Assembly (NCBI RefSeq): GCF_037975245.1
Contig: NC_092571.1
Coordinates: 27,935,564 to 27,999,563 of the forward strand
Origin: Apostichopus japonicus
Taxonomy: Eukaryota; Echinodermata; Holothuroidea; Aspidochirotida; Stichopodidae
Direction: 5' to 3'
Length of the DNA: 64,000 bases
Positions 34,996 through 62,033 of this stretch are shown piece after piece. The notes under the pieces were generated by a model. The model saw only the letters and a program-made list of their open reading frames with translations. It ran no database searches and was not told the DNA's origin. Every line of letters starts with the position of its first letter. Position 1 is the first letter of the stretch. The translations under genes were made by a program, and so were the position numbers.

Positions 34996-36519
34996 ATGGG
35001 AAACGTCAGTACCTTGCGAAGATTCCTTGCGCTTTTGCTACTCACGGAGTTAGTATTGAACACTCTTTGTAGAGTTAACTTGGAGTTTGACAGCGGCTAT
35101 GAATATAGTGTGATAGAAGGTGATGACGTTGTGCTGGTTTGTCAAAGTCAAGGAAATGATTCTGTCACAATATTTCGAGGTTCCATGCGAGAATACATGA
35201 TTATAAATAATAGCGTACTGGAGGGGAATCCAAAGCGATACGATTTTCAGTTCAATGCAACAGAACTTGGTTTTAATCATTGGTTAACTATTAGGAACAT
35301 TTCCACAGAAGACGGAGATGTGTATTTGTGTGTACGAAAAGAACACTCGTTTGAACCGGCATCTCTGACCGTGAACGTGATATTTGCATCATCAAAACCC
35401 ATTTGCTCATCCCCGGCGGAACTAGTGTTTTTTGAAGATGAAATAAACAAGAGAATTGTTTATCAATGCATAAATAAAAACAACGATGATCCTTCTACAC
35501 AGTTATCCATTAAAGGTTTTCCGAAGAATATGCCTGTGAAGACTGATTCAGTGCGACAAGGTGATATATTGAACAAATATGTGTCCTTCATACCTTCACA
35601 CGAGATTAATCAAACCGTCATTACTTGCCATCTTCGTCAAAATGTAACTTCGTCTAATAAAGTTACATCTTTTCACGATTTCTGCACATTTCCACCCCTT
35701 TTGTTTTTGAAAGAGCTAGTAATGTCTATAACACCACCAAGTTATAGCATTACTAAACCAGGGAAGGTTGCGTTCACCTGTCTCAGTAATGCCGGAAGAA
35801 ATGACAAATGGAAAACAACGTGGAAAATAACTTCCGAAATTCCGATTTTCGTGAAGTATTCGATTTCCTCTAGCCGTTTAACGTTTGAAGTAAATGAACC
35901 TTTAGATATAACTACTACGGTTGCAATCCTTTTTGAATGCAGTGGAGAGGTGAGACATCACATAGCAAAGACAGTTGCTTCTCTCTCCATCACGCACAAT
36001 TTCACATCCGGATCAATGTCGGAACCATCAAACCTAACGTTTGTTTTATTTGTTACAGCATTTCCTTCGGTGGTTATTCTTGTTTTGATCATACTCTATT
36101 ACATTTGCTATAAACTAAGGTCAAGAAACCAACATGTAGACCATATTGACAAAGGACCAACAACACCCATGCCAGAAAATGACCTCCTACAGAAAAGAGA
36201 TAAAAACCTTGAGGTTCAAGGACAGCCGTTTGATACTTTTTCAAAACACATGGATAACATTCAGATTCAGACTCTTAAAAGTGCTTCGAGACGTGATAAC
36301 ATGGAAGCAATTGGAGGTGAAACAGTAACCACCTTTGACGAATACCCTACTATTCAGTTATCGAGTACCAATGACAGCTACACAACGACAGTAAGACCTG
36401 TAAGTGTAACGATGGAAACCAGTCTAATTGGAAAGGATCCACAAATGCACGTTCCTACAGTACATGTACCCAAAGTCTCGGACTCGGCGACAGAAATCAA
36501 ATATGCTGAGATAGTGTGA
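34996..36519 (+). CDS. Receptor A: Ig-domain membrane protein with C-terminal ITIM
   Basis: One uninterrupted coding exon of 507 codons. Residues 1-25 form a signal peptide (FLALLLLTELVLNTLC). Ig domain 1 (about 28-128) has C49 and C112 with the DGDVYLC signature of V-type domains. Domain 2 (about 133-235) has C137, C158, C211 and C230. Domain 3 (about 240-335) has C262 and C315. A membrane helix spans about 347-372 and a tail of about 135 residues follows. The tail has DEYPTI (Y450), SYTTTV (Y462) and a terminal IKYAEI (Y503), which fits the ITIM consensus [ILVS]xYxx[ILV]. The cysteine layout is collinear with receptors B and D, and YTTTVxPxSxxM in the tail is shared. It is the diverged, single-copy member at the cluster edge. 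Function as an inhibitory receptor recruiting SH2 phosphatases is inferred from the motif; the ligand is unknown. Confidence 0.85.
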   Translation: MGNVSTLRRFLALLLLTELVLNTLCRVNLEFDSGYEYSVIEGDDVVLVCQSQGNDSVTIFRGSMREYMIINNSVLEGNPKRYDFQFNATELGFNHWLTIRNISTEDGDVYLCVRKEHSFEPASLTVNVIFASSKPICSSPAELVFFEDEINKRIVYQCINKNNDDPSTQLSIKGFPKNMPVKTDSVRQGDILNKYVSFIPSHEINQTVITCHLRQNVTSSNKVTSFHDFCTFPPLLFLKELVMSITPPSYSITKPGKVAFTCLSNAGRNDKWKTTWKITSEIPIFVKYSISSSRLTFEVNEPLDITTTVAILFECSGEVRHHIAKTVASLSITHNFTSGSMSEPSNLTFVLFVTAFPSVVILVLIILYYICYKLRSRNQHVDHIDKGPTTPMPENDLLQKRDKNLEVQGQPFDTFSKHMDNIQIQTLKSASRRDNMEAIGGETVTTFDEYPTIQLSSTNDSYTTTVRPVSVTMETSLIGKDPQMHVPTVHVPKVSDSATEIKYAEIV

Positions 36520-38170
36520 GGATTGGTCGCCATGCTTGATAGGTTATATTGTTCGAGCTTGGGTGGCGCGCAAGTAAACCATAATGTAAATATAACTTTT
36601 TTTTATCAATCTTAAATGTATACTAACCATTAAATATCGGACAGATGCTGACTATAAGTTTAATCAACGTTCGAAAGGATTAAAGGGGAGAATGGAATCA
36701 CTTACCTAATTACGAAATGAAGTCCCACAGACAACTCAGAACGTACCGGAATATGAATCGAATATTTGTTCAACTTCCTTAATGTGGGGTGAAGGAAGCG
36801 TTTCAAGATTTTACTTGGTCTCCCATGTTGAGTTTCAGATCGGATATTCTGAGATTTATAATTTAAAATAAAAATCGATTCCTAATAAGATATAATTAAT
36901 CTTGAACTATTTCTTTATATATGCGAACAGTTATGATTCTGTAAGAGATTTTTTTTTGTATGTTTAACACGAACACGAAAAATATTTAATTTTTTTTTCT
37001 CGGAAATATTTTAAGAAACACGTGAAGTGGATCACTGCACTCGTGCGTAAAAAGCCAACTCGATGTCGAATTCAACCACCATCCTTCTTGAAGAGTGGTG
37101 AATGCACAACCTACTTTACAAACATTGCAATTTCATAATTCAAATTTGGTTCACCGATAGGTGGGGGAGATAGGAGGTGTTCCTTGGTTCCCTTATTTCA
37201 CCGTGATGTACACTTGCCAGTGGGTTTTTGCACTTCATAAAGTTTCAATTTGCCCCACTTGCCCCTCTCCACCTTGGAATTTCTGTTGCCGCCACAACTG
37301 TTAATCAGGGAATTGTTTGAATTACTCCATGCCTTTACATCTGTACATAGACCGTCACAGCGAGAAGTGACATTAAATATATTTAATAATTAATGATTTG
37401 CAAAATGACATTAATGATAGCAAAAATATAATATTCACCTCGTCAGACAGAATCTTAGCACTCTGAACAGGGAACTACAATTTCTGTATATCAAATGCAG
37501 ACTATACTTGGACTTAGACTTTTTTGGTAAACCTTTTACCCAAAGTTTGGTTGACTAGATATGCGTATCCAATGTTGGGCAAAACAATTCACCCAACTCA
37601 AAAGTGTTTCTTCGACTGATTAAAGGTGATTACTATATTTTATTGTGGACATTTGCATATTTCCATACCCATTTGTAGTCGAATTGGTTAACGCAAATAT
37701 TAAGCTTTGATCAAATAGGTGTTCTCTCAGTGTTCACATTGCAAAAGCTGGTTTTTAGCGTACCTTTAGAACCCTGGTGAATTCAATATCAAAGCTTTCG
37801 ACTGAATCATAAAACTAGTTTACTAAAACTAAATTGCTGTAAACTGCTGTATTTTAAAAAATTCGACTAATTTATCACTCAATATTCCGAAATTTATTCC
37901 TCAAAGTTTACACCAAAAAATAATAACTAATAACAAACTATAGCAAACTATAACAAAAAATAGAAAATTTACTGTATCGTTAGGTACACATACAAAGGAT
38001 ACAGCTAATTGAGAATATAACGACTCCAGCTCTATGATCCAACTTAACACTGTAAATATTTTGAAAAGTAACATTTTGTGAAGAAACACGTGCCGTGTAA
38101 AAGGATGTGTGCCCTTTGCATGATGTTCAGTGCATCACATCCAAATGATAATCATATTTTGACGTTTTTC
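36520..38170. other. Spacer between receptor A and the repeated array
   Basis: A possible polyadenylation signal AATAAA lies at 36867-36872. Otherwise no gene is seen. The repeated blocks shared among B, C/D and E/F begin near 38170. Confidence 0.5.
36867..36872 (+). promoter_or_regulatory. Candidate polyadenylation signal of receptor A
   Basis: Canonical AATAAA about 350 bases after the stop codon. Such hexamers are common in AT-rich DNA, so the assignment is weak. Confidence 0.3.
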
Positions 38171-38760
38171 CAAACTGTCGTATCCATGAGGGAGTACTGG
38201 AGTGACTTTATTGTTTGAATAAATGGTTTGTACCTGTTTACCCAAATGTTGGGATGATATCTTCAACTTTATAAATTACCTACCGATATTCATATGTTAA
38301 ACATATTAACCGGTTAATTCAATAAATTGGACAGCTAATCGCTTATTGAAAAAAACAAAAAAACATTAAAGGGTGTTTTGCGACCTCTATTCTTGTTTTG
38401 TGCGGATGTCCAAGTTATTGTTGGCAACCGCTACAGAACGTACAAGTTTTCTTTTGTAGTTTCTGTTTGTCAGTGATACTTTTAATATTCATTGAACTGT
38501 GCTTATTGTGATCCTACTGTATATTTCAATCTGTAGTCTTTACTTACGTGCTGCTTCATAAGACTTGCCAATATAGTGTCTACTGTACTCAGTATTAGTT
38601 TGTAAAATATTTCTCTCCAATATCAACTTTGATACTTGAAAATTGATCTATACTGAATATGTTATCTATTTTAAATGGTGATAGTTGTGATTGGTATACA
38701 AAAGGCAATACGATACCCCATAGACCGCTGGTTAAGATAAGTTCTTGTTAAACATCCCAT
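38171..38760 (+). repeat. Array block R1, first copy
   Basis: About 38171-38760 is paralogous to 45790-46080 plus 48350-49070, and to about 58270-58790. Shared words include ACCTGTTTACCCAAATGTT, AGTGTCTACTGTACTCAGTATTAG and GTTATCTATTTTAAATGGTGATAG. In the C and E blocks this segment directly follows the truncated receptor genes. Confidence 0.75.
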
Positions 38761-39051
38761 GTTTTTACTTTCAGTCTTACTGATTACCTTTTCACTTGGG
38801 GTGGGGGGGGGGGTTACACCCGTGGTAGTGGTCCGACTCTTTCTCGGCTAAATGCAAAATAACCCCCGAATGAACAATTTACCCCCGAATGATAATGGAC
38901 TTGTCTTCTATCAGTCACGGGCACGATATCAGCTAATAGTGTCTGCAGTGCATATAATTGATCAATTTGTGCATATTCTTGAGTGGCATTAACCATTTGT
39001 TATATTGTATATCGCGAACATTGCTTCCCTTTCATGTTGTTAACATTCCAG

Positions 39052-39161
39052 GCATGTTTGGATAACGTTGAACAAATGCCTTTAATTTATGATCAGCCGT
39101 GTTAGCTAAACTCCAACGAATTTCGGAGAACTATCGGAGACACCATATGAACGCATCTAAG
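39052..39161 (+). other. Predicted non-coding 5' exon of receptor B
   Basis: A 110-base segment runs from ACATTCCAG|GCATGTTTGG to the donor ATCTAAG|GTAATAT. It is conserved at 51607-51714 and 52052-52159 with the splice sites, and degraded at about 58986-59070. The coding exon of B starts after an acceptor at 39787-39788, so this is likely the upstream untranslated exon. Whether it is the first exon (transcription starting inside) or an internal one cannot be told. Confidence 0.5.
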
Positions 39162-39788
39162 GTAATATTTTCATATACGTTATGTCTCACGCACTCACAC
39201 TGCTATACAGACTTGACCAAAAGCTCGAGTATGAAGAGGTCGCTAAAAATATTTTGCCTGACGATGTTTCACCAAGTTCCAACTGTTTAGGGTGTTAAGA
39301 GAACGTCGCGTATGTTCAGTGTCATTACATTAAACATAGATGATTTGCCAGTAATTAGGTTTAACGAAATATTTATTGGTTTTATTGGGCATGGCTAAGA
39401 ATCCCACTTATACTTACGATACATCAATTACATTTACATTGCTATTGACATTGAGTGCCAACTGGTAATACATTATTCATGCTGTTCAACCAATTCAGTA
39501 CCGTTTCCAGTGTTACGAGAAAATACTTGTTGGTGTTTTTAGTAGGACGTATCGACTTGTCGCTGTTATGGGCATGTCACTCGTGTAGACCGAAGTCGCT
39601 GGGTGGCAAGTCTAATGGATGAGGGAGTTAACGGGGCGTAGGATCCGCCTTAAATTTATGTGGCATAATTAACAACCCTACGTTCAGCATTTTGATGTCT
39701 ATCCATGCAAAATGTACACATGACTCGTCTCAATTAACAATGATGTTAATATACCTTTTTATGTTTTTTTTTTCTCTTTAATCTCCAG
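39162..39788. other. Intron before the coding exon of receptor B
   Basis: Paralogous to 52160-52937 and to about 59970-60541. It ends in a pyrimidine tract and the acceptor TTAATCTCCAG. No coding potential. Confidence 0.55.
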
Positions 39789-39845
39789 TTTGTGGTAGTA
39801 CCTGTCACCTACACGAAAACCAGAAACAAATTAACAGGTGTTAAG

Positions 39846-41255
39846 ATGAATACAACTTCAGTATTTCTGGTACTGGTGTTTTCCGATTTTTTTGTATTTA
39901 TGAAAGCAATTGTTGTAAATAGAACGTTACAGTTTGAAGATCCTATGAAGATATACACAGTTTTGCAAGGTGATAGAGTTGGTCTTTTATGTAGCCCAAA
40001 TGATGTTGATGATATAAAAATTTTTACCACAGGATCACTGGTTGCCTCAGGGAGACTGGAGGAACCGGTATCAGATGAATTTGACTTTGAATGCAATGAA
40101 ACAAGTTGTACACTAAGCATTAAACAAGTAGAGAAGAAACATGCTGACATTTATACGTGCTATTTGCCCCAGACGTCTTTGAAGATAGAAGTATTGAGCA
40201 GTCCTTCACAGGATTATCCTGTGTGTAATTCAAGCTACACCAATCATACATTCTTCCTCGATTCGTTCCAAGAACCTTTTTGTTTTAGTTGTCTGTCTGA
40301 AGAAGGATTTCCAGCAGTTAACATGTCATTATCTGTCAATCATGGAGATGGTGAGATAAACAACATAAGTGACGAAAATTTAACGATTTATGAAACAAAT
40401 GAGACTGTTTTAATTTCTTATTCATCATATCTGGATTCATCGTTTAATAACAGTACCTTTGTATGTACTGTCACACAACAGTTACCTGCTCCCTATCACA
40501 GCTACAATAAATCTTGTTCTTTCGGACCATTGATGCTACCGGTATTCTCGGTATCGATTCATCCATCTTACTATACAGTGACCACAAAGAATACAGAAAA
40601 CATTATTCTCATGTGTACCAGTAATGTGAGTGGAGTTGTATTAGAGTGGACCAATATTCCCCTCGACGATTGGAATTATAATATCACTCGGATCAATGAT
40701 TCATCACAGCTGAAGATTTTAGATTATGGATCAAGTATCGATCTACCAATAACTATGCAGTGTAGTGGTTCGTATGGAGGAATAACTGTCTCCCAATACG
40801 CCACAATCGATATCGCGAGTACAGACGAGCATATAATCCTCTCTACATTAATCACAGCGGTATTGATAGTGTTCGTCATCTTGGTCATTATAGCTATAGT
40901 TCTTGAACTAATCGGAGTACTTATAAACAGAAAAACAAAAAAACAGCAGCTTCCTGCAATGTCATTAACGGATACAGGACTGACACGCTCTAACTTATCT
41001 TCTCAGGGTAACACTCAGTCACCGCTTCCTGTCACTTACACGACTACAGTAAGTCCTGAAAGTATGAATATGCAACATCGACGAATGAATGAAGACTTAT
41101 TGTACGCTCGATCGATAACTTTACAACAAGAAACAGAGAAAGAAACAGAACAATATTTTGATATCAATGAAGTCGCCTCATTTACATACGACAAAGATGA
41201 TTATCTCGATCCAAGTCAGCATGAAACAGCGGTTTTGTACCATGACATTAGTTAA
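39846..41255 (+). CDS. Receptor B: three-Ig-domain membrane protein with C-terminal ITIM
   Basis: 469 codons in a single exon that begins at the acceptor at 39788. ATG 39846 is chosen because it starts the signal peptide (about residues 1-21) and is conserved in C, D, E and F; upstream in-frame codons contain no ATG. Ig domain 1 has C49 and C105 with ADIYTC, plus an extra pair C83/C88 (FECNETSC). Domain 2 has C127, C149, C207 and C224. Domain 3 has C257, W268 and C306. The membrane helix is about 332-360 and contains a glutamate at 354 that receptor D lacks. The 109-residue tail has Y398, Y420, Y437, Y448, Y453 and the ITIM VLYHDI (Y465). The ectodomain is rich in N-glycosylation sequons. Likely an inhibitory immune-type or recognition receptor; the ligand is unknown. 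Confidence 0.9.
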   Translation: MNTTSVFLVLVFSDFFVFMKAIVVNRTLQFEDPMKIYTVLQGDRVGLLCSPNDVDDIKIFTTGSLVASGRLEEPVSDEFDFECNETSCTLSIKQVEKKHADIYTCYLPQTSLKIEVLSSPSQDYPVCNSSYTNHTFFLDSFQEPFCFSCLSEEGFPAVNMSLSVNHGDGEINNISDENLTIYETNETVLISYSSYLDSSFNNSTFVCTVTQQLPAPYHSYNKSCSFGPLMLPVFSVSIHPSYYTVTTKNTENIILMCTSNVSGVVLEWTNIPLDDWNYNITRINDSSQLKILDYGSSIDLPITMQCSGSYGGITVSQYATIDIASTDEHIILSTLITAVLIVFVILVIIAIVLELIGVLINRKTKKQQLPAMSLTDTGLTRSNLSSQGNTQSPLPVTYTTTVSPESMNMQHRRMNEDLLYARSITLQQETEKETEQYFDINEVASFTYDKDDYLDPSQHETAVLYHDIS

Positions 41256-43600
41256 AGGAGCGTGCGCAAGGGCGGGGTAGGAATGGGGTGATGGGAGCAA
41301 TTTATTATATATACCTACGTTATAATATAAACATGCATGAAAGGGTATCATTTCCAAGCCACCACAATCTTGTTGGGCCAATGTGGGTTGATGTAGAGAG
41401 CGTGGAGTCAGCTGGACTTGAGCTAACATTGAAGTTACTTGTTGGGCACCGTGTGTTTTTGCATTAGATGAGTAAATTACATGTTTCTTGGGATGTGGTT
41501 ACATTAATGTGTAAGTTCTGGGACGAGTAATTGCGTTCGATTCGGGGTTTGACATGTGGACATGGACAATTTATTGAGGGTAATGGCTGCCCACTTGTGT
41601 TGTATGTGGGTAGAGTATTTGATGCACAATTAATTAAGTATACTATCAGGACCCCATTTGGCTTTCATGGAGGCTACGAATGGGTAAATTAGCGTTGTGT
41701 TACCATGATATGACTGATTGAATCCCATTTGGGTTTTTCATGGGTTATACAAGAGCAACTTAATGTGGGTTAACCAAGTTATACACAGTTGTGTTCCATG
41801 TTGGTTAATATGTACTTGACATGCCGGGGTAATTACTGTGGGTAACCATGAAATGAATGTATTAGGCTACAAATGGACACATTAGTTTGGGGTCACTCTG
41901 ACATGACTAATTGAGTTCCAATTGGGAATCTACATGGGTTAATTTGTGTGGATAAACCAATGGATGTCCAGTCATGTCTACCATATGGGTACAAAGTGGG
42001 CTGTACATGGGAAATTAATGTGAGTATACCATGTAATATAAACCTGGTTTTTGGAGGTTAGAAACTGTCACATTCGTGTGGGGTAATGCTGGACTGACTG
42101 ACTGGGTCACATTTTGGGTTATACATGTGTTATGCACGTGTTGTGGGTTAACGAAGGGAAAACATTCTCGGGTGAATATCATGATTAGGCACAATTTATA
42201 TATGTCATCGTGGTACCATTCATTTAGTTATTATATAATCCTAGACAGCACGATAAATTCGTATCCGTAATGTTTCGATAGGCTAACCTTACTTTCTGTT
42301 ACTGCTAAGTTAACGTATTAAACTATACTAGGCCTAATGTTCAATATCGTCAGTGTGGGACATCCCTGGATCGAGGTGTACTTGCAAAACACCTGGGACG
42401 GGATACTACATGTACATCGAGCTATATATTTGGGTACAGTCTTCAGAATTTGTCAATACCTATATGTTTATGTCCTAATTTAGGCTAACTTTAGCTATGA
42501 ATGAGAGGATAGGCCTACTTAGCAATCACATCCATGGGGGCCCCATGCAGGTTATATGTGAAAATCGTAAGGAGGGCTAACTATGGATTACATACTAGCG
42601 ACGCGTATGGTAGTTGTATTAAGTATGTGTGGAGGGAAATACGTGGGCTTACATCACCGCTTTAGCTTAGACCTTTGACCAATTAATGTGGGTTGCAAGT
42701 AGGCTTCAAATGGGTACATTGATGTGAGTTAACCTTAGGATGACTGACTGGTTCTCGCCTGTGGTTTTACATGACTTTGGAACGTGCCAATTTTGTGTGG
42801 GTAAATCAAGGATTGCCCAGTTGTGTTTCAAGTGGGTATAATATGAGCTGCACAGGAAAAATTACTATGATTATAACATGTATATAATATCAGCTGGGCC
42901 ATTCGTTCGTTATGGAGGCTACAAAGTGCTCCAAAGGGGTAATATTATTCACTGCTTTACCTTTAATATGATTTGTTTTTAAATTACCACACCTAGATAT
43001 TGCCAAATTTCTTGCACAGAAAGAACAGAGAACCTACAAATAGTTCAGCTATACACTACAATAGTGGAGTGCATATGTATTTGCTTATCATATCCAGGAA
43101 GTTAACGTGCAACTCCTGTCAATGGCATTTACACAACTGGTCATATACGTATTCAGTTATATTGCTGCTAAAGCATTCATTGCAGTTTTAAAATGCTGAC
43201 GGAAGTATAGCTTTCGATTTCGACGCCGGAGGCTCGAAATCCAAACAGTCAATGCTGACGTGTGTGTATTTAAGGGCTTGAGTATATTTGTGTTTTTTGA
43301 CAGCTAGCTCGCAAACAAGAAATAGTGGCAATTCATACCTACATAATTTATGCGATTTGATGAGCAGATATGCTCAATTTCTTTAATGAAACCCTTATAT
43401 GAATATTAATGTTTGGTCAAGGATTAATGTAAAGTTTGTAATTAATATTCTTCGTACTTGATATGATGGTGTAAGTATGCGATATGTACATTTTATTATT
43501 ATTAAATTTAATCTCATTAGTAGTCATGATTGGCCGAAGTTTGAAATTTAATTGCTAAGATTGCTTGTTAACTCGAAATAAAAAAAAAGGACGTGTTGGA
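41256..43600 (+). repeat. 3' flank block R2 of receptor B
   Basis: The sequence after the stop codon (GGAGCGTGCG.AAGGGCGGGGTAGGAATGGGGTGAT in part) is shared with 54414-55760 and 62036-63480. The B copy has about 800 extra bases (about 41660-42480) filled with degenerate TGGGTTAATGTGGG-like repeats. A conserved word TTTCGACGCCGGAGGCTCGA occurs at about 43218, 55637 and 63270. No open frame of note. Confidence 0.7.
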
Positions 43601-45062
43601 TCAATGTCATACTTACATGTTAGATGAACCGATGTGGTTAGATGTGCTCTATTACCTTCATAACATGATTGTTAATGAATAGGTTGCCTTTACGTAACTT
43701 CACAACCTTGTCTGATTCACTTTACTTAGTGTGGTTGTGTTAACAGATGATAGGTATAATTTCGTATGATTATTGTGTATCATTTTCTTAACACGCATGG
43801 TTTGGAAGAGTAAAAACTTGGTCGCTGAAAAAAATTCTAGGCATGACCTCAAAGAAAACAAAGTTGATTAACATCATTCTGGACAATGAGATGCCATGAT
43901 GAGTAGATGTGCCGAATTGATCGTGGTTTGTCATATTGTAATGTGCTCGTGGCTTAATTGGGATGAACTCCTTAAACTGTCAGCATTTTTGCAATGCTCA
44001 TGTCCACTCAACTAGAAGATCATTATCTTCACAACATGATATATAGGCAGCTTGATATTTAGTGCTGTTGATACGGCTGTTTTCAGTCAATGATAAACTG
44101 TTAATAAACAACTAAACATTCAATTATAGACACCATTATGAGATTTGAACACATTGAGCCCATTATGCGTCACGCAAACAAAACCTTTACAGGGGTTGCC
44201 CAATTTGGTCTATAATAGTCTAGACCAGATGGATTCTATGTGAGTTGCCTAGTTCACACCTGTATCAGCTCTAAAAAGAACCCAAAAATACCCTGCTTGG
44301 GACCATCAATATCCCTAGATTTCCCTTTAGAAAATTCCCTCGAAAGTTGACTTAGAATCATTCGCAAAATGTATTTCTATCAATTAAATCATAGTATAGG
44401 AAAATGAAGTTATTTGGATACATGGTTGGATGGTCGAACAACCGATTTTGGTTGCAAATTTACTGTGAGATTTGGTCTATACATGTTCAGTCAAACTCGG
44501 AGAGATATTCCAAAACGATATTGGAAGGTTATGGCTAAGAATCCCATTTCTACTTACAGCACTAACATAGTCATTATCGCACGATCGAGAGTACAGGGTT
44601 GCCAATTGGCAATGCGTTCTTCCTGCTTTTCAATCAATTCCGAAAAGTTTCCAGTGTTAAGAGAAAATATTGTTTTGGTGATGTTATGTACGAGCCGGGC
44701 ATAAATTCATGTCACTCAGGTATAATTGGGTCACTGGGTGGCGAGTCTAATGGATCAGGAAGTAAGCGAGGGCTTGGAATCCCTCTCCTTGAAACATTTG
44801 GCATAATTAACCACCTTACGTTCAACGTTTTGATATCTATCGGCATGCAAAATGTACAAATCACTTTCATGACTTTAAACGGACCAATTAGCCCCTTCAA
44901 AGGACTGTGTTTAGGTTTGTCACTCTCATAGTGATATGTTACTTAAAACGAAGTTTTTTAAATTGAAACTAGTGTGTTTGAGACTTAACACATCAATTCG
45001 TTTCAATGGACAACGATGCTAATATACCCTTTCATGTTTCATTTTTCTCTTTTAATCTCCAG
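43601..45062 (+). repeat. Array block R3, upstream of truncated receptor C
   Basis: 43600-44320 matches 55745-56440, and 44320-45000 matches 57300-57990. It corresponds to the intergenic region and intron upstream of C and E. It ends in an intact acceptor TTTTAATCTCCAG at 45050-45062 before C. Confidence 0.65.
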
Positions 45063-45118
45063 TTTGTGGTAGTACCTCTCACCTACATAAGCAGGGGAAA
45101 AAATTAGCAGGTGTTAAC

Positions 45119-45425
45119 ATGACTTCAGCTCCAGTATTTCAGGTTCTGGTGCTTTTCGCAATAGTTGTATTTATGGAAGCAACTGTTGTAAATAGAACGA
45201 TACAGTTTGAAGATACTTTGAAAATATATGCAGTTTTGCAAAGCGACGGATTTAGTCTTTCGTGTAGCCCAAATAATATCGATAATTTACTCATGTTTAC
45301 CTAAGGATCACAACTGGTTACCAGATGAATTTGACTTTTAATGAAACAAGTTACAATAAGCATTAAACAAGTAGAAAAGAAACATGCTGACATTTATACA
45401 TGCTTTTTTTCCAAGAAGATCAAGA
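45119..45425 (+). pseudogene. Receptor C: truncated receptor pseudogene
   Basis: It starts with ATG and a B-like signal peptide and mature start (ATVVNRTIQFEDTLKIY). It then meets a stop (TAA 45302-45304) where B reads on through the C'-strand region. Fragments of the rest of Ig domain 1 follow in broken frames (DEFDF, SIKQVEKKHADIYTC) before homology ends at about 45425. Domains 2 and 3, the membrane helix and the tail are absent. An intact acceptor precedes it, so a short transcript could exist, but no receptor can be made. Confidence 0.85.
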
Positions 45426-46212: not shown

Positions 46213-46220
46213 GAAAATAC

Positions 46221-48875: not shown

Positions 48876-48883
48876 CTTGTCAA

Positions 48884-49261: not shown

Positions 49262-49269
49262 TTGCATCT

Positions 49270-50348: not shown

Positions 50349-50356
50349 TTGCATCT

Positions 50357-51606: not shown

Positions 51607-51714
51607 GCATGTTTGGATTACGTTAAACAAAAGCCGTTAGTTTGTAATCCGCCGTGTTCGCTTAATTTCTACGAATTTCGGAGTACTATCGAAGACACCA
51701 TAAACGCAACTAAG
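51607..51714 (+). other. Predicted non-coding 5' exon of receptor D, distal copy
   Basis: The same conserved segment as 39052-39161 (GCATGTTTGG...GCAACTAAG|GTAACA). Its donor is intact. Together with the copy at 52052-52159, receptor D has two candidate upstream exons from a local duplication of about 445 bases. Confidence 0.45.
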
Positions 51715-52051
51715 GTAACATTTTCATATACGTTATGTCTCACCATGGAGCTATTACCGACCGAAATTCGCTAGAATGGATGCAGACATTTGATAACCTC
51801 GAAGTCAAGGTTTCCATTGTTATGACGTAACTTTTCCGACCAATCATGAGCGACTATTTACACACAATTGCGAACCTGTTTGGGGAAAAAATTCCCTGCC
51901 CGGATGTCTAAGTCACGAGCGTATGTCAAGAGTTAGATATCAGCAAATAGTGCTAAGTGCCGCAGCAGTCACTTGAACAAGTTGTGTGGCTTTAATGATT
52001 TCTTATTGTATATCGTAGACATGCGTTCCTGTTCGTGTGGTAACATTACAG

Positions 52052-52159
52052 GCATGTTTGGGTGACGTTCATCATATGCCGTTAATTTATAATCGGCCGT
52101 GTAAGCGAAATTCCTACGAATTACGGAATACTGTCGGACGTACCATAAACGCAACTAAG
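52052..52159 (+). other. Predicted non-coding 5' exon of receptor D, proximal copy
   Basis: ACATTACAG|GCATGTTTGG to GCAACTAAG|GTAACA, close in sequence to 39052-39161 and 51607-51714. It is the nearer of two candidates and is followed by an intron paralogous to that of B. Confidence 0.5.
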
Positions 52160-52937
52160 GTAACATTTTCATATACGTTATGTCTCACGAAATCACACTT
52201 CTATACAGATTTGATCAATAGCTCGAGTATCAAGGGGTCGCAAAATATATTTTGCCTGCCGATGTTTAAAAATCGAAATGTTTGCAGTGTTAAGAGAACG
52301 TTGCGTACGTTCAGTGTCCATACATTAAACATAGATGACATCCCAGTTAATAAGGATAACGAAATATGTATTGTTTTTTGTTGCCAACTTTTCAGTGAGG
52401 TTTGGTCTATAAATGCTCAGTCGCACGTTGAAATATATCACGCAGCTATTGCAATGTCATGGCTAAAAATCCCACTTACTTACATCAGTGACATTAACAT
52501 TGACATTGGGTGCCAACCGGTAATACATTATTCCTGCCGTGCAACCAATTCAGTACCGTTTTCAGTGTTACGAGAAAATACTTTGTTGTTGATGTTACTA
52601 TGACATCTCCACTCGTCGTTGTTATGAGCATAACTTCATGTCACTCGTGTAGACAGAAGTCGCTGGGTGGCGAGTGTAAGGGGAGAGGAAGTTGGCTGGG
52701 CTTAGAATCCCCCCTCCATCATTTGACACATAGTCCATGCAAAGTTAGTAAACAAAATAATTCCATACAGTTAAACGGGGTAAATAGCCCCTCCCCTCCC
52801 TCAAAGATATGTGTTTAGACCAGGCACTCTCTTAGCAATATATTATCGATAATGAATCTTCGTAAGTTGAAGCCATAGAGCATTCGTTTCAATTGACAAT
52901 AACTTCATCCCTATTTTTTTCCTCTTTTAATCTTCAG
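52160..52937. other. Intron before the coding exon of receptor D
   Basis: Paralogous to 39162-39788. It ends in CCTCTTTTAATCTTCAG at 52937. It opens a frame of about 180 codons (52037-52603), but the paralogous region in B is not open, so I do not call it coding. Confidence 0.55.
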
Positions 52938-52988
52938 TCTTTCTTCGTACATCTCCTCCACAGGAAACAAATAATAGCAGGCGTTAAG

Positions 52989-54410
52989 ATGACTTCAGTT
53001 TCAGTATTGCGGATCCTGGTGCTTGTCATTTACACAAATGTTTCATTTCTTGAAGCAAGTGCCGCATATAGGGAAATACAGTTTGAAAATATTACGAAAA
53101 CATATTCAGTTTTGGAAGGCGCTGAGATTAGGTTTATATGTAACCCAATGGATATTAAGAAAATGTTAATTACTACCACATTATCGACGTTGGTTAACTC
53201 GGGGAATTTGGAGGAAGCATTATCAAAAGAATTTGACTTTGAATGCAATGAAACAAGTTGTGCACTAACCATTAAACAAATAGAGAGGAAACATGGGGAC
53301 GAATATGATTGCAGTTATCCTAAAAAGTCTTTGACCATAAAAGTACTTAGCAGTCCATCACATGATTATCCTATGTGTAATTCAAGCTACACCTCTAATA
53401 CATTCTTCCTCGATTCGTTTCAAGAACCATTCCATTTCAGTTGCCTGTCTGCAGAAGGATTTCCAGCAGTTAACATTTCATTATCTGTCAATCATGGAGA
53501 TGATGAGATAAACAACATAAGTGACGAAAATTTAACGATTTATGAAACAAATGAGACTGTTTTACTTTCTTATTCATCATATCTGGATTCAACATTTAAT
53601 AACAGTACCTTTGTATGTACTGTCACACAACAGTTACCTGCTCCCTATCACAGCTACAATAAATCTTGTTCCTTCGGACCATTGATGCTGCTACCGGTAT
53701 TCTCGGTATCGATTCATCCATCTCACTATACAGTCACCACAAAGAGTACAGAAAACATTACTCTCATGTGTACCAGTAATGTGAGTGGAGTTGAATTAGA
53801 GTGGACCAATATTCCTCTCAACGATTTGAATTATAATATCACTCGGATCAATGATTCATCACAGCTGAAGATTTTCGATTATGGATCAAGTATCGATCTA
53901 CCAATAATTATTCAGTGTAGTGGTTCGTATGGAGGAAGAACTGTCTCCCAATACGCCACAATCGGTTCCGCGAGTACAGACGAGCATATACATCTCCCTA
54001 CATTAATAATAGCGGCATTGATAGTGTTCGTCATCTTGGTCATCATCGCCATAGTTCTTGTACTAATCGGAGTACTAAAAACCAGAAAAACAAAAAAACA
54101 GCAGCTTCCTGCGATGTCATTAACGGATACAGGACAGACACGCTCTCACTTATCTTCTCAGGGTAACACTCAGTCACCGCTTCCTGGCACTTACACGACT
54201 ACAGTAAGTCCTGAAAGTATGAATATGCAACATCGCCGAATGAAAGAAGACTTATTGTACGCTCGATCGATAACTTTAAATCAACAAAATGAGAAAGAAA
54301 CAGAACAATATTTTGATATCAATGAAGTTGCTTCATTTACATACGACAAGGAAGATTATCTCGTTCCGAATCAGCTTGAAACAGCGGTTTTGTACCATGA
54401 TATTAGTTAG
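52989..54410 (+). CDS. Receptor D: three-Ig-domain membrane protein with C-terminal ITIM
   Basis: 473 codons in a single exon after the acceptor at 52937. The ATG at 52989 matches that of B. Signal peptide about 1-25. Ig domain 1 has C51, C108 (DEYDC) and the extra C86/C91 pair (FECNETSC). Domain 2 has C130, C152, C210 and C227. Domain 3 has C261, W272 and C310. Membrane helix about 336-363 without the glutamate found in B. The tail ends in VLYHDI, an ITIM. From DYP (127) to the end it is nearly identical to B, whereas residues 25-126 are only about half identical by eye. Likely a paralogous inhibitory-type receptor with a different ligand-binding face; no ligand can be named. Confidence 0.9.
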   Translation: MTSVSVLRILVLVIYTNVSFLEASAAYREIQFENITKTYSVLEGAEIRFICNPMDIKKMLITTTLSTLVNSGNLEEALSKEFDFECNETSCALTIKQIERKHGDEYDCSYPKKSLTIKVLSSPSHDYPMCNSSYTSNTFFLDSFQEPFHFSCLSAEGFPAVNISLSVNHGDDEINNISDENLTIYETNETVLLSYSSYLDSTFNNSTFVCTVTQQLPAPYHSYNKSCSFGPLMLLPVFSVSIHPSHYTVTTKSTENITLMCTSNVSGVELEWTNIPLNDLNYNITRINDSSQLKIFDYGSSIDLPIIIQCSGSYGGRTVSQYATIGSASTDEHIHLPTLIIAALIVFVILVIIAIVLVLIGVLKTRKTKKQQLPAMSLTDTGQTRSHLSSQGNTQSPLPGTYTTTVSPESMNMQHRRMKEDLLYARSITLNQQNEKETEQYFDINEVASFTYDKEDYLVPNQLETAVLYHDIS

Positions 54411-56440
54411 TTTAAGGAGCGTGCGTAAGGGCGGGGTAGGAATGGGGTGATGGGACGTTTGTGCATTCAGTGGAAAATAGAGCCATTTAATATATAGACC
54501 TATGTTATAGTATAAACATGCATCCAATGGCATCATTTCCCAGCCACCACAAACTTGTTGGCCCTATGTGGGTTTTATGTTGCGAATGTGGTGTTAATTG
54601 GGTTTGAGCTAACATTGTACTACTTTGTAAAGCATCATGTTTTTTTGCATTAAATATGACCTGGTTACATGTGGGCTGTAAATGGTTAAATTAATGTGGG
54701 TTAATTCTGGGACGAGTAATTGCCTTCGATGTGAGGTTTGACATGTGGACATGGGCAACTTATTGTAGGTAAACCAAGGGATTCCCTGTTGGGTTGCAAT
54801 TAATGAGAGTTTATCAATCGGGGCCCATATGGCTTTGCAATTATGTAGGCTGTAGGCCTTGGCCTCATTCATATTAGCGTAGCTTAGATACGCAAAATTT
54901 AGGATAACGAGTGGGAGGAAAGGCCTACATAGCAATCACATCCACAGAGGCCCCATGCAGGTTGAAAAACGTGGGATTAAAAGTAGGGAGGGCTAACCAT
55001 GGATTATATACTAGCGACGACGCGTATGGTAGTTGTATTAAATATGTGTGGACAGAACTACGTGAGCTAACATCAACGCTTTAGCCCAGACCTTGTCCAA
55101 TTAATGTGGGTTGCATATTAGCTTCAAATAGGTACATTAAACTGGATTAAACTTAGGATGATTGACTGGTTCTCGCGAATGGTTTTACATGACTTTGGAA
55201 TGTGCCAATTTTGTGCGGTTAAATGAAGGATTGCTCCGTTGTGTTGATGTGGGTAAATTATGAGCTTCAAAAGGACAATTAATATGATTATAACATGATT
55301 GTAATATGTCTCAGCTGGGCCATATGTTTGTTATGGAGGCTAAAAAGTGTACAATAGAGGTTATACTAAATTTAAACTGCTTCACCTTTTATGTGATTTG
55401 TGTAAAGTACTTCACCTAGCTATTGTCAAATTTCTTGCACAGAGAGAACAGAGAACCTACCCATTGTTCAGCTATATACACTACAATATGAAAGTGCATA
55501 TCTATTGCTTATCATATCCAGGAAGTTAACGTGCAACTTCTGTCAATGGGATTTACACAACTTATCATATACATACTCAGTTATATTGATGATAAAGCAT
55601 CCATTGTAGTTTAAAGTGCTGGAGTATAGTTTTCGGTTTCGACGCCGGGGGCTCGAGAATGTATACAGTCAATGATGACGTGTGTGTATTTAAATGCATG
55701 TGTATATCTGTGTTAGTGCGGACAGCAAGCTCGCAAAGAAGAAAAAATGTCATACTTACATGTTAAATATACCAATGTGGGTATATGTACTCTATTCCCT
55801 TCATATCATGATTATTAAAAAATAGCTCAACGTAACTTCACAACCTTGTCTGATTTACTTTACTTAGTGTTGTTGTGTTAATAGGTGATAGGTATAGTTT
55901 CATATGATTATTGGGTATCGTTTTCTTAATACGCATGGTTTGGAAGATCTTAAAACTTGGTCGCAGATAACAAATATTGTAGACATTACCTCAAAGAAAA
56001 CAAAATTGATTAACATCATTCTGGACAGTTAGATGCCATGAAGAGAATATGTGCCGAATTGGTCGTGGTTTGTTATATCATGAAATGTAATGAACTCGTC
56101 GCTTAATTGGAATGAACTCCTTACAATGTCAGCATTTTTGCGAAGCTCATGTCCACTCAACTAGAAGATTTTTTCTTCACAAAATTGTATCTAATCAGCT
56201 TGGTATTTAGTGCTATTGTTACGGCTGTTTTCAGTCAAGGATAAACTGTTAATAAACAACTAAGCATTCAATTAAAGACACCATTTGAACACTTTGGGCC
56301 CATTATGCGTCAGGCAAACAAAACTTTAAAAGGGGGGCCCAATTTGGTCCATAAAAGTCTTGACCAGGTGGATTCTATGTGAGTTGCCTAATTCATACCT
56401 GTATAAGCTCTACAAAGAACCAAAAAATATCCTGCTTGGG
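54411..56440 (+). repeat. 3' flank block R2 and R3 of receptor D
   Basis: 54414-55735 matches the 3' flank of B and F. It lacks the 800-base expansion seen in B and about 270 bases present at 43330-43590 and 63370-63640. 55745-56440 matches 43600-44320. No genes. Confidence 0.7.
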
Positions 56441-57300
56441 ACCATCAATATCCCAAATGGACTGCACATATGAAATTTGTGTAAGAACCTAATGTTTCCC
56501 TCTTTGATTTCCTGAATAAAGACCAATGTAAGTCCCAACATCCCATAAACTTGAACTCGTTTGGGGCCAACACAGGCCAGGGAGATAAACTGTATAGAAC
56601 TTATCGAGTTTTCCGATGTGGGATGTCTAATTTGTAAGTCCCACAATAAACCCACTAATATTTTGTGTGGAAGCTAAATAGGACACATCTATATCCCAAT
56701 AATATCCAAACTTTAAACCATTTCAGTACGCCCACATGGGTCCGAAATGGTTCTGACGGACAAAGAGGTGAAGGTACCACAAGGGGTTGCCCATATTGAC
56801 CAATATATGTTGCCAGACCAAAGGGGCCTATCAATATCCTGCACCTGAGCCAACAACTTAGTGCGATAACCCATGTGATACCCATTTAGGACTCATGTCT
56901 ACCCCACACAAGTTTGCTTAAATGGGACCCACTGTTATTCTACTTGGGATTGCCTTCTTGAGGCCAACAGGTGGACAAAATTTCATAGAACAAATTGGCC
57001 CACGTTGATCCCACTATGTTGCCCTTATACAAGCCGTATCAGGCCACTATAGGTGTGACGGCTGGGTTCAAGTCTGCGTTAATGATATTTTGTTTGGGGG
57101 AGTCCCCAAACTTCAAGAGACCCCTGGTATATACATTGATTGTTATGAACATCCCGAATGCAACTGCCAACTTCATATTTGTAATGAACATTGGCGTCTG
57201 AATTCACGCCATTTGTTGCAAATGTCCAAACCATTGCTTCGTACATTTTTTATACATATGGCATTCCGTAGATTGAATTAAGGATCGATCTAATATATAC
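56441..57300. repeat. Degenerate repeat insertion in the D-E interval
   Basis: About 860 bases not present between B and C. It contains recurring diffuse words (CCCACATGGGTCC, GGCCAACA, ATCAATATCC) that read as degenerate tandem repeats, similar in reverse complement to the TGGGTTAATGTGGG repeats downstream of B. No gene. Confidence 0.45.
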
Positions 57301-58045
57301 GTATATATTCCTAGATTTCTCCCTGAAAATATTCCCTCGAAAGTTGACTCAGAATCGTTCGCATAATGTATTTCTATCAATTAGATCATGGTATCCGAAA
57401 ATGAAGTTATTTGGATACAATCATGGTTGGATGGTCGACCAACCGTGTTTGGTTTTGATTACAAATTTACTGTGAGATTTGGTCTATACATTTTTAGGGA
57501 AACGTTGAGATATTCCAAGACGATATTGGAAGGTTATGACTAAGAATCCCATTTCTACTAACAGCAATGACATAGTCGTTATCGCACGATCGAGAGTATA
57601 GGGTTGCCAATTGGCAATATATTCTTCCTGCTATGCAAACAATTCAGAAACCTTTCCAGTGTTGAGAGAAGATATTGTTTTGGTGATGGTATGAACTAGC
57701 CGGGCATAAATTCATGTCACTCATGTTGACTGAAGTCACTTGGTGGCTAGTCTAATGGATCAGGAAGTTAGCGAGGGCTTACAATCCCCCTCCTTAAAAC
57801 ATTTGACATAATTAACCACCTTACGTACAACATTTTGATATCTATCGGCATACAAAATATACAATTCACTTTCATAATTTTGAACAGACCAATTAGCCCG
57901 TTCAAAGGTTTGTGTTTAGGTCTATCACTCTCTTAGTGATATATTACTTAAAACGAAGTTATGTAAAATGAAACTAGTGTGTTTGAGACTTAACACGTAG
58001 CACCTCTCACCTACATGAATAGCAGAAAAAATAGCAGGTGTTAAA
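57301..58045 (+). repeat. Array block R3, upstream of truncated receptor E
   Basis: Matches 44320-45118. Near 57999 about 75 bases present before C, including the pyrimidine tract and splice acceptor, are missing, so E lacks the acceptor. Confidence 0.7.
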
Positions 58046-58285
58046 ATGACTTCAGCTTCAGTATTTCGGGTTCTAGTGCTTTTCGCAAATGTAATATTTA
58101 TGGAAGCAACTGTTGTAAATAGAACGATACAGTTTGAAGATATTATGAAAATATATGCAGTTTTTCAAGTCGACGGATTTAATCTTTCATATAGCCCAAA
58201 TGATATTGCTAATATATACCTATGTTTACCTAAGGAGCATCACTGGCTACCTCAGGGAGACTCTCGGAATCGTTACCAAATGTAT
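58046..58285 (+). pseudogene. Receptor E: truncated receptor pseudogene
   Basis: Begins like C (MTSASVFRVLVLF, ATVVNRTIQFEDIMKIY) and preserves only the signal peptide and the first part of Ig domain 1. The first disulphide cysteine is replaced (SYSPND where B has LCSPND), and homology stops at about 58285, where block R1 begins. No acceptor upstream. Closest to C, so C and E descend from one truncated or decaying parent. Confidence 0.85.
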
Positions 58286-58985
58286 GTATGATATATGCAA
58301 CTCAATGGATTGCCTAATTATTCCTATTATAAACAAGTACACCGGCTATAATTTCATTGGACAGTTAACCGCCTATTGAAAAACATCAACATGTGATTTG
58401 CGCCCTCTTTATTTGTTTTCCGCGGACGTCCATGGAAACAGTCTACTTGTTTTCAACCGCTACAAACCGTGCACATTTTCTTCTGTATTTTCTGTTTGTC
58501 ATTATACTGTTTGTATATTCGGTGCACTAGGGTTATTGTGATTCTACTGTAAACTTCAATATGAAGTCGTTACTTATCTGCTACGGCATAAGACTTGTCA
58601 ATATAGTGTCTACTGTACCCAGTATTAGTTTGTAAAAGACTTTCCCCACAATATCAAGTTTAATACTTGAAATTGATCTAGCTTAGAGATGTTATCTATT
58701 TTAAATGGTGATGGATGTGATTAGTATAAGAAGAAAATTAGATCCCTCAATGACTGCTGTTTACGACAAGTTCTTGTTAAACATCTAATGTACTTAATTT
58801 CATTCCGAGTGCTTACCCTTTTACTTTCATTGAAATGAAATCCAACCAAAGAAAAGTTTAATTGCGCCATCATTTTTTTTCTCATTTTCTTTTTTGCATT
58901 AAATGTGTCCGTTGATAAGGGGTATATTGCATCTACATTTATAAGTCTTCAAAATAATTTTATAGGGGATCTCCTAAACCGTTAT
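58286..58985 (+). repeat. Array block R1, third copy (with empty sites)
   Basis: Paralogous to 38250-38800 and to 45890-49261. It contains the uninterrupted targets CTTGTCAA (58594-58601) and TTGCATCT (about 58927-58934) that carry transposons in the other block. Confidence 0.75.
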
Positions 58986-59070
58986 ATGCCGTTAATTTAT
59001 CATCGTCGGTGTTAGCGAAATTCCTAAGAATTACGAAGTACTATCGGATACACCATTATACCGCAGCTAA
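58986..59070 (+). pseudogene. Degraded 5' exon of receptor F
   Basis: Matches the 3' three quarters of the conserved 5' exon (CCGTTAATTTAT..TC....GTGTTAGCGAAATTCCTA in part), but the start GCATGTTTGG is missing and the donor CTAAG|GTAAC has become CTAACGTTAC, with no GT at the junction. Confidence 0.65.
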
Positions 59071-60541
59071 CGTTACATTTTCAGGTATATATGTAAGCAT
59101 CACACATGACTGTCCTCCTCAGTGGAGTTCGATTTACATTCGTCTTTTATGTATAATTTTTTCCTGCATAGGCGTGTAGGCTATCACTGTGTTAAGCCTC
59201 AGATGATTTACCAGAAAACTGTAGTACTAATCGAATTTAATCAATTCTATATATTCGGTTATATGTGTCTTGTTGTGGAGATATAAATGTAGTACAATAT
59301 TCGTATGACTATGGCATAAACCTATTTCTTTTCTATACTCAAATGGAATGATTTGATTCAGGATTGGTTGTTTGAATAAACGCTTCGGTGACTATGTATA
59401 CTATTCTAGAGAGAAAAAGCATTAACAATTTCGTCAAACGTTGATGCAGTCCACCTAGCTTTTGGAATGTTATGTACCACACAATCATAATTCTATAAAG
59501 ATTTGAGCAAAAGAACGACTAGGAAGGGGTTGCTACATATATTCTACCTGTTTAACCGAATTCGAACTGTTTGCAGTGTTTAGAGAACGTTGTGTTTAAA
59601 GTAGTCCCATAAGTTCAACTTCATTACATTTAACATATGATAACATCCCAGTACACTACTGTTTAGGTATAAAGAAATGTTTTTTCCTTCAATTTCTTAC
59701 CCGACCGAATGCTATCCCCCGCCCGAATGACGATCAGAGGTGGAGAAATGGGGATAAGCACCCAACAGTGTATGTAGGCATGGATTGTCTCTGCGAAGGG
59801 TTGCTAATAATTTATGAAGTTCGATCCATTACATGTATATTTTTCAAAAAGTCTCACTGGACATATTTGCTTCAAAAGTTGCGAAAAGTTCAGTTTCAAG
59901 TTCAACCGTTTTTGGTTTTTATTGCAAAGTTTTCAGTGAGGCTTGGTCTATAAAATGTCCAGTCGCACGTTTAGTAGTTCACCGAGCCATTGGAATTTCA
60001 TGGGTAAGAACCACACTACTACTTACATCATTGACATTGGGTGCCAACTGGTTATACATTATTAATTCCTGCCGTTCAGGCTTCAGCCAAATTGAGTACC
60101 GTTTTGCAGTGTTACTAGAAAATACTTTGTTGGTAATGTTACTATCAAACCGACTTGTCGTTGTTATGGGCATAAATTCATGTCACTCGTGTAGACAGAA
60201 GTCGCTTGATGGCGAGCATAAGGGGAGAGGAAGTTGGCTGGGTTCAGAACCACCCCCCCCCCCACCACACACACATCCTTTTTCATCATTTGCCATACTA
60301 ACCCCTTACTTTCAACATTTGTATGTCTGTCCATGTAAAGTATACAAAATAATTTTATACAGTTGAACGGGGTAATTAGCATCATTCAAAGAAATGTGTT
60401 TAGACCAGTCACTCTTTCAGCAATCTATTACCGATAATGAATCATCGTAAGATGAAACCAGTGTGTTTAGGGCATGAAAAAAACCGTTTTAATTGACATT
60501 GTGCCCAATTATTTTTTCCATGTTTCTGATTAAATCCTCAG
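59071..60541. other. Intron or spacer upstream of receptor F
   Basis: 59100-59880 is unassigned and may be an insertion. 59960-60540 matches the introns of B and D and ends in TTAAATCCTCAG. Confidence 0.5.
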
Positions 60542-60592
60542 TCATTGATCGTACATCTCATCGACTTGAAACACATAATAGCAGGCGTTAAG

Positions 60593-62033
60593 ATGACTTC
60601 AGTTTCACTTTTGCGGATTCTGGTGCTTGTCATTTACACCAACGTTTTATTTCTTGAAGCAAGTGCCGCATATAGGACATTACAGTTTGCAGATACTAAA
60701 CAAAAATATTCAGTATTGGATCGTGATACGATTAGGTTTTTATGTAACCCACTGGATATTGAGAAAATGTTAATGTTTACCACAGAATCAACCCTGGTTT
60801 CTTTAGGGATATCGAATGTAGCATTACCAGATGAATATGACTTTGAATGCAATGAAACAAGTTGTGCACTAACCATTAAACAAATAGAGAGGAAAATGAG
60901 GACGAATATGAATGCCGGTTTCCTAAACGATCTTTGATAATACAAGTACTTAGCAGTCCATCACATGATTATCCTGTGTGTAATTCAAGCTACACCTCTA
61001 CTACATTCTTCCTCGATTCGTTTCAAGAGCCGTTCTAGTTTAGTTGTCTGTGTGAAGAAGCAAATCCACCAGTTAACATTTCATTATCTGCCAATCATGG
61101 ATATGGTGAGATAAACAACAAAACTGACAAACATTTAACGATTAGTAAAACAAATAAGACTGTATCACTTTTTTATTCATCCTGGATTCATCCTGGATTC
61201 ATCTGGATTCATCGTTTAATAACAGAACCTTTGTCTGTACTGTCACACAACAGCTACCTGCTCCCTATCACAGCTACAATAAATCTTGTTCCTTCGGACC
61301 ATTGATACTACCGGTATTCTCGGTATCGATTCATACATCTCACTATACAGTCACCACAAACAGTACAGAAAAAAATACTCTCATGTGTACCAGTAATGTG
61401 AGTGGAGTTGTATTAGAGTGGTATAATATTTCCCTCGACAATTGGGATTATAATATTACTCGGATCAATGATTCATTAGAGCTAAAGATTTTCGATTATG
61501 GATCAAGTATCGATCCACCAATAACTATTTGGTGTCATGGTTCGTATGGAGGAAGAACTGTCTCCCGATACGCCACAATCGGTTCCGCGAGTACAGACGA
61601 GCATGAACATCTCCCTACATCAATAATAGCGGCATTGATAGTGTTCGTCATTTTGGTCATCATCGCCATAGTTCTTGTACTAATCGGAGTACGTAAAAAC
61701 AGGGAAAGAAAAACAAAAATACAGCAGCTTCCTGCGATGCCATTAACGGATACAGGACAGACACGCTCTCACTTATCTTCTCAGGGTAACACTCAGTCTC
61801 CGCTTCCTGGCACTTACACGACTACAGTAAGTCCTGAAAGTATGAATATGCAACATCGCCGAATGAAAGAAGACTTATTGTACGCTCGATCGATAACTTT
61901 AAATCAACAAATTGAGTAAGAAACAAAACAATATTTTGATATCAATGAAGTTGCTTCATTTACATACGACAAGGAAGATTATCTCGTTCCGAATCAGCTT
62001 GAAACAGCGGTTTTGTACCATGATATTAGTTAG
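60593..62033 (+). pseudogene. Receptor F: full-length receptor pseudogene
   Basis: Follows the D gene from ATG to the final TAG (62031-62033), but with at least four lesions. A one-base deletion near 60893-60897 shifts the frame just before the second cysteine of Ig domain 1. An in-frame TAG lies at 61036-61038 in domain 2. A 17-base net insertion near 61170-61215 comes from repeated CTGGATTCATC. A stop at 61917-61919 truncates the tail before its last tyrosines. The distal domain is closest to D (SAAYRTLQFADTKQKYSVL). The membrane helix and most of the tail code are preserved, suggesting recent decay or a donor for gene conversion. Confidence 0.9.

Follow-up and report, generated by a model that had tools for sequence, protein, structure and literature searches.

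What kind of receptor is encoded by a cluster of immunoglobulin (Ig) genes in the sea cucumber Apostichopus japonicus, and how did its members come to differ? The cluster lies in a stretch of 64,000 nucleotides (C11:27935564-27999563, contig NC_092571.1), referred to here as the window. An earlier note on this DNA had proposed a tandem cluster of single-exon Ig receptors at 34996-62033 and had read it as inhibitory, with tails ending in an immunoreceptor tyrosine-based inhibitory motif (ITIM). The family to which these genes belong was found to be far larger than the window. The recognition domain and the tail of its members have separate histories, which is a new result and a reassortment not visible from the window alone. 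The genes are best read as a large germline family of paired-receptor-like type I membrane recognition receptors, with one coding exon each, mostly arranged in tandem arrays and diversified by germline recombination. We assign this reading a probability of about 0.6.

A large family with mosaic members

Three intact and three broken receptor copies were confirmed in the window, all on the + strand:

34996-36519, + strand: gene A, 507 aa, one coding exon; signal peptide, V-like Ig domain, two further Ig-like domains, transmembrane (TM) segment and tyrosine tail
39846-41255, + strand: gene B, 469 aa, one coding exon; V type 1 with a class I tail (defined below)
52989-54410, + strand: gene D, 473 aa, one coding exon; V type 2 with a class I tail
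45119-45418, + strand: broken copy, V region only, with three in-frame stops
58043-58216, + strand: broken copy, only the end of the signal peptide left
60590-62033, + strand: broken copy, D-like along most of its length, with pieces in three frames, frameshifts and two stops

As had been described, A, B and D each encode a hydrophobic N-terminus, then a V-like Ig domain and two more domains with paired Cys, and one hydrophobic TM stretch, followed by a tyrosine-bearing tail ending in IKYAEI-V (A) or VLYHDI-S (B and D). Hydrophobicity rules, not a trained predictor, served to call signal peptides and TM stretches. The open reading frame listed for B starts at a GTG upstream of its ATG. B and D are not close paralogues of A, which is 26% identical to B; the nearest relatives of A lie on C19 (up to 40% identity), and others were found at C11 25.90-26.07 Mb and on C13. 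The array continues beyond the end of the window with two further members, L004 and L003.

The assembly (671,581,487 bases, 35 contigs) was searched with B, A, L012, L077 and L051, and places were merged by hand; counts for so large a family are lower bounds. At least 101 matched places were found genome-wide, of which about 94 form the core, many of them broken; seven distant or tiny places (two on C4, two on C15 and one each on C21, C23 and C11 at 5.17 Mb) are excluded from it. By the same hydrophobicity rules, a single frame runs through a signal peptide, a TM segment and a tail of 40 aa or more in 49 core members, A, B and D among them. The remaining members are truncated, broken, tail-less (L077 and L078 on C13 end at the hydrophobic stretch) or, in the case of L004, without a TM segment. 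The larger arrays are as follows:

C11 26.98-27.60 Mb: 37 places, all on the - strand (the large array)
C11, window array: 8 places, all on the + strand
C11 28.08-28.34 Mb: 12 places, 11 of 12 on the - strand
C19: 11 places, all on the - strand
C4: 10 places, all on the + strand
C11 25.90-26.07 Mb: 6 places, all on the - strand
C23: 4 places, 3 of 4 on the - strand
C13: 3 places, all on the - strand

An expanded and clustered Ig receptor family with tyrosine-based tails, mostly in same-strand tandem arrays, is thus supported as originally proposed.

In the window array, B, D, L003 and L004 make up a two-by-two grid in which all four combinations of V type and tail stand side by side. The V domains of B and L004 are 82% identical and those of D and L003 80%, against 54-56% across types. 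For the TM segment with the tail the partners change: identity is 87% between B and D and 81% between L003 and L004, against 24-40% across. The 3' flanks track the tail, with values of 0.81 and 0.79 for genes that share a tail type and 0.45-0.49 for those that do not, and the 5' flank tracks the V type for B and L004 (0.89).

The large array, taken with L050 on C18, contains four V groups, each paired with two or three tail groups, and V type and tail group were not associated (permutation p = 0.93, n = 23). Within the large array, V identity was correlated with that of the second domain, D2 (rho = 0.75, 378 pairs); rho was 0.11 between V and the third domain, D3, 0.37 between D3 and tail, and 0.02 between V and tail (276 pairs). 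Most exchange has therefore occurred between D2 and the tail. Nine changes of V type are needed on the tail tree and three on the V tree, and 0% of 200 bootstrap trees of the tails, a bootstrap not fully settled, held any V group together. As similarity in V was the criterion for grouping, the V tree could be expected to keep these groups together, and it is the discordance that constitutes the result. The V labels are still somewhat clustered on the tail tree, since nine changes compare with a shuffled mean of 11.6 and a value as low arose in 6 of 200 shuffles. On C19, L064 is L063-like through D2 and L066-like from inside D3 onward.

Similar ectodomains thus occur on different tail classes in clustered genes. 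This is the pattern of paired receptors, and the likeness in logic to paired receptor clusters that the note had drawn is upheld.

Ig domains, selection and gene structure

Ig domains were detectable by profile, which places the family in the immunoglobulin superfamily. Taken singly, A, B and D score under the Pfam cut-offs for Ig models, some relatives score above them, and 13 of 20 aligned members match Ig_3 at E<=0.01. The profile built from these 20 members matched chains of JAM, PD-L1, CD4 and CEACAM, among others, in PDB sequences. Invariant positions of the alignment (B numbering) are P125, C127, C149, C207, Q211, C224, F226, C257, N260, W268 and C306, where C257-W268-C306 is the usual Ig pattern. 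No Kirrel or SYG chain occurred in the best 60 of 582 profile matches, and no sushi domain match was listed in Pfam scans of family members. An AlphaFold model of B, computed from an alignment with only D and A of the window, had a mean predicted local distance difference test score of 38 and was too poor to use.

A further one-frame Ig transmembrane gene was encountered on C21 (L082, 19078000-19080500). SYG-2 and Kirrel1 are among the structures matched by its first two Ig domains, and the gene is possibly a kirrelL relative.

In most groups, amino-acid change scaled to silent change is faster in the V domain than in the two inner domains. Pooled within V groups, the ratio of nonsynonymous to synonymous substitution rates (dN/dS) was 0.87 for V against 0.53 for D2 and D3, and 0 of 2000 bootstraps reversed this order; V lay above the inner domains in 10 of 13 groups. 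The pooled values are below 1, which suggests that the genes have been kept as proteins. The V ratio exceeded 1 in the C4, V-B, V-D and C13 groups. Positive selection in V is not claimed, given the pooled 0.87 and the presence of values above 1 in only 4 of 13 groups.

The single-exon claim held for the coding part, which is one exon, and probably not for the whole transcript of B and D. Acceptor-like sites were located before the ATG at three places in the window:

39762-39788, + strand: gene B, pyrimidine-rich tract and CAG, likely 3' splice site of an intron in the 5' untranslated region (UTR)
52912-52937 (left edge approximate), + strand: gene D, pyrimidine-rich tract and CAG, likely 3' splice site; the exon begins 51 nt before the ATG
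60516-60541 (left edge approximate), + strand: acceptor-like site of the broken 60.6-kb copy

Such a site, 51-57 nt upstream of the ATG, is common to B, D, the broken 60.6-kb copy and L004, and is weaker in L003. In the large array, 11 of 12 genes with a V3-type V domain have one 37-46 nt before the ATG; no clear acceptor-like site was seen upstream of A, the C4 genes or the C19 genes. Because of these sites, B and D probably have a 5'UTR intron, and their gene model would comprise a 5'UTR exon and one coding exon.

Tyrosine motifs of the tails and candidate partners

The motifs of the window genes are located as follows:

36496-36513, + strand: C-terminal ITIM-consensus IKYAEI of A
41232-41249, + strand: C-terminal ITIM-consensus VLYHDI of B
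54387-54404, + strand: C-terminal ITIM-consensus VLYHDI of D
41187-41213, + strand: YDxxxYLxP module of B, YDKDDYLDP
54342-54368, + strand: YDxxxYLxP module of D, YDKEDYLVP

The terminal ITIMs of A, B and D proved real: one arose in 0.45% of shuffles of A's and of B's tail (P = 0.0045). An ITIM at any position in such a tail is not beyond chance (P = 0.27 for A and 0.21 for B). Motifs were then counted over 52 tails, 49 core and three distant, with the strict ITIM defined as [ILVS]xYxx[ILV]. A terminal ITIM was found only in A, B and D. In all, 15 of the 52 tails contained 19 strict ITIMs; composition shuffles gave 14.7, and 87 of 500 reached 19. The ITIM was accordingly rejected as a family-wide feature, and the claim that the family as such is inhibitory through it was not supported as stated. 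The immunoreceptor tyrosine-based activation motif (ITAM; Yxx[LI]x6-12Yxx[LI]) was present in one of the 52 tails, where 1.3 were expected from shuffles.

Two other modules dominate. YDxxxYLxP defines class I; against a shuffled mean of 0.0, it is carried by 26 of 49 core tails, which come from four arrays and two lone genes. A terminal Yxx[ILV] is present in 27 of the 49 (28 matches; shuffled mean 2.2), and in class I it amounts to an ITIM only in B and D. Class II, with at least two NxxY and without YDxxxYLxP, accounts for 14 of 49. Because this class was defined post hoc, its enrichment for NxxY and its separation from class I follow circularly from the definition, a circularity that does not affect the counts over all 49 tails. 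Over these, NxxY occurred 42 times against 28.8 (5 of 500 shuffles), N..YE 18 times against 2.2 (0 of 500) and NPxY five times against 1.5, and N..YE was absent from every class I tail. By class, strict ITIMs were fewer than in shuffles in class I (4 against 8.9), numbered 7 against 3.7 in class II (reached by 34 of 500 shuffles), and 7 against 1.85 in the nine tails outside both classes (4 of 500), three of these seven lying at the membrane edge.

The tails were also reduced to 21 rough representatives by crude matching that joined some unlike tails. Among these, YDxxxYLxP gave 11 matches in 6 of 21 tails with 0.0 expected, and the strict ITIM was borderline (10 against 6.0; 45 of 500 shuffles). 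In 19 aligned class I tails from the large array and C18, three of five tyrosine columns are invariant; tyrosine columns average 0.87 in conservation and the others 0.73. We take YLxP to be similar to the SH2 sites of PLC-gamma and Crk, and NPxY to be similar to PTB sites.

Charged TM residues were considered as a sign of adaptor pairing and rejected, being present in just three of 49 core members (B, L007 and L058) with no pattern. In B the residue is encoded by a Glu codon at 40905-40907, inside the predicted TM segment (40863-40922); D has valine there. Some tails are repetitive. The lone member L006 (C11:18423930-18428264) carries about 10 tandem ELYLVPEQNT-like repeats, an expansion of the YLxP module, and L072 and L073 (C11 25.90-25.92 Mb) have tandem-repeat tails rich in CCQTYSTTI-type units, unequal in number between the two.

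Candidate partners of the tails were sought in the same assembly. At C11 15.54-15.57 Mb, two SH2 exon matches are followed on one strand by protein tyrosine phosphatase (PTP) exon matches. The second SH2 exon matches SHP-2 at 2.5e-28; one PTP exon matches best receptor PTP-S (5e-24), with SHP-2 next among non-receptor forms (1.1e-18), and the other matches best SHP-1 (9.7e-19). SHP-like phosphatase exons are thus present in the genome, and they may form a single gene. Across the assembly, 150 of 548 candidate tyrosine-phosphatase exon matches were scored, most of them on C2 and many on C16, which amounts to a large phosphatase gene expansion. Repeated SH2 matches of similar score in 133-aa frames on C14, C4, C9, C19 and C20 suggest an amplified SH2-bearing gene or element.

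Apart from the receptors, the window encodes in a single frame at 14572-15456 a nucleotide-diphospho-sugar transferase (PF03407, E 2.2e-21), and an RNA-family scan of the window gave no match at gathering score. Contig C29 carries additional mitochondrial-like cox1 and nad1 pieces besides those on C35. The cox1 frame is open under several genetic codes in which TGA is Trp, and code 9 in addition yields residues known to be conserved; nad1 shares the strand of cox1, an arrangement that suits sea urchins and sea cucumbers better than sea stars.

Interpretation and comparison with known systems

In the proposed mechanism, the V domain would be the variable part and would bind variable cell-surface, self or microbial ligands on coelomocyte-like cells. 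The tail would be phosphorylated by Src-type kinases, whereupon different SH2 or PTB proteins may be recruited by the NxxY repeats of class II tails and by the class I tails, which carry YDxxxYLxP and in most cases a terminal Yxx[ILV]. Exchange would take place around D2-D3, where the domains are more alike, placing one V type on either tail. The same recognition could then be given different read-outs, as in paired receptors, with the tails serving as interchangeable output modules. The immune role, the ligands, the cell type and the sign of signalling are inferred. More tentatively, an echinoderm may have built a paired-receptor system independently, by reassorting whole V domains and tails in the germline between one-coding-exon genes, with a main switch of YDxxxYLxP plus terminal Yxx[ILV] versus NxxY repeats and not of ITIM versus ITAM.

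Several observations weigh against the paired-receptor-like reading. Strict ITIMs and ITAMs are not enriched family-wide, and opposite signs of the tails are therefore not established. The tail shuffles treat related genes as independent. The V ratio is raised, yet its pooled value is below 1, and in three of 13 groups (C19b, C25.9 and 75/76) it is no higher than that of the inner domains. One cell of the grid, L004, has no TM segment and adjoins a run of N; at 0.64, D and L003 are no closer in their 5' flanks than genes of different V types (0.63-0.73); and V group V0 (n = 3) has class I tails only. The SH2 and PTP exons are joined as one SHP-like gene by order and proximity (30 kb) only, and one PTP exon is closer to receptor PTP-S than to SHP-2. 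Finally, kirrelL, a one-exon Ig protein of echinoderms whose role is known, is developmental according to parts of PMC8903837.

That last point leads to the view that the genes, rather than encoding immune receptors, serve adhesion or cell fusion in mesenchyme or coelomocytes, and that they are a set expanded by duplication whose proteins are comparable to kirrelL and IgTM. In the accessible text of the two reports, kirrelL has no introns in any echinoderm examined and is required for cell fusion (PMC8903837), and IgTM regulates skeletal branching (PMC6768484). JAM, Robo and contactin are among the profile matches, and the one-frame gene on C21 resembles SYG-2 and Kirrel1. Nevertheless, about 94 core places, many of them broken, and V domains of 17-98% identity inside one array combined with shuffled tails are unlike a conserved developmental gene, and YDxxxYLxP and N..YE exceed chance in the tails; we regard this view as unlikely. 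Uptake by endocytic or phagocytic scavenger-type receptors, in which NxxY/NPxY and Yxx[ILV] tails mainly drive internalization and shuffling only varies sorting, appears improbable. The NxxY repeats of 14 of 49 tails and the NPxY excess would suit it, and a terminal Yxx[ILV] presumably also fits adaptor sorting signals. We know of no sorting signal of the form YDxxxYLxP, however, both tyrosine columns of which are invariant in the 19 aligned large-array tails.

The purely inhibitory family of the earlier note, acting through ITIM and SHP, is given little chance. It would account for the terminal motifs of A, B and D, for internal ITIM-fitting sites in five of 14 class II tails and such sites in five of the nine other tails (counting A's terminal one), and for the SHP-like exons. 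It is opposed by the shuffle counts, with class I even below chance, by the confinement of terminal ITIMs to three genes, and by three C4 members whose tails of about 50 aa lack either module. That the grid of V types and tails reflects assembly error or haplotype mixing in place of real recombination is very improbable: L004 does adjoin a run of N, but mosaics are present in the arrays of the window, of C11 27 Mb and of C19 alike, and the gene copies lie kilobases apart with distinct 3' flanks.

If the paired-receptor-like reading is true, non-chordate deuterostomes have a large germline Ig recognition repertoire with switchable read-outs. The arrays would also provide a natural experiment on tail function, in which the same V domain is found with different tails and the same tail with different V domains. 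The convergence of allorecognition and immune receptors on tyrosine-tail signalling would become open to testing in an animal with culturable coelomocytes, as stated in a portion of PMC13428168. Judged by titles and the starts of abstracts, with most subscription papers outside reach, the literature searched held no recognisable report of such an echinoderm family. Searches by term in the available text did not find IgSF and ITIM in the review PMC13428168, or sea urchin and sea cucumber in the review PMC11999971.

KIR and LILR are vertebrate paired Ig receptors. Further cases, CEACAM and Siglec-11/16, have similar ectodomains on tails of opposing function (PMC5112662), and gene conversion makes such ectodomains alike (PMC5701461, from the part available). 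The sea cucumber family resembles these systems in being Ig receptors with similar ectodomains on different tails. It differs in its one coding exon, in a dominant YDxxxYLxP that is neither ITIM nor ITAM, and in the combination of whole V types with different tails.

The Botryllus fester co-receptors (FcoR) are described in the accessible text of PMC12065747 as having a V-type Ig domain, two C2-type Ig domains and a TM segment, with 53 loci so far and tails bearing ITIM, hemITAM or core Yxx[ILV]. They share with the present family the V-type Ig and two further Ig domains, the TM segment and mixed tyrosine tails; by the same text FcoR has a sushi domain between V and C2 and alternatively spliced exons, whereas the sea cucumber genes have no sushi match and one coding exon. 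The same source tells of candidate allorecognition genes with ITIM/ITAM-type motifs in the Hydractinia Alr complex, a likeness in tyrosine motifs. Among echinoderm Ig transmembrane proteins, kirrelL, with its single exon, and IgTM are alike in kind. Since kirrelL is one-exon (PMC8903837), that form alone is not new. Both proteins are developmental, and large arrays or shuffled tails are not described for them in the available parts of PMC8903837 and PMC6768484; in the sea cucumber family, by comparison, V types and tails are recombined in tandem arrays.

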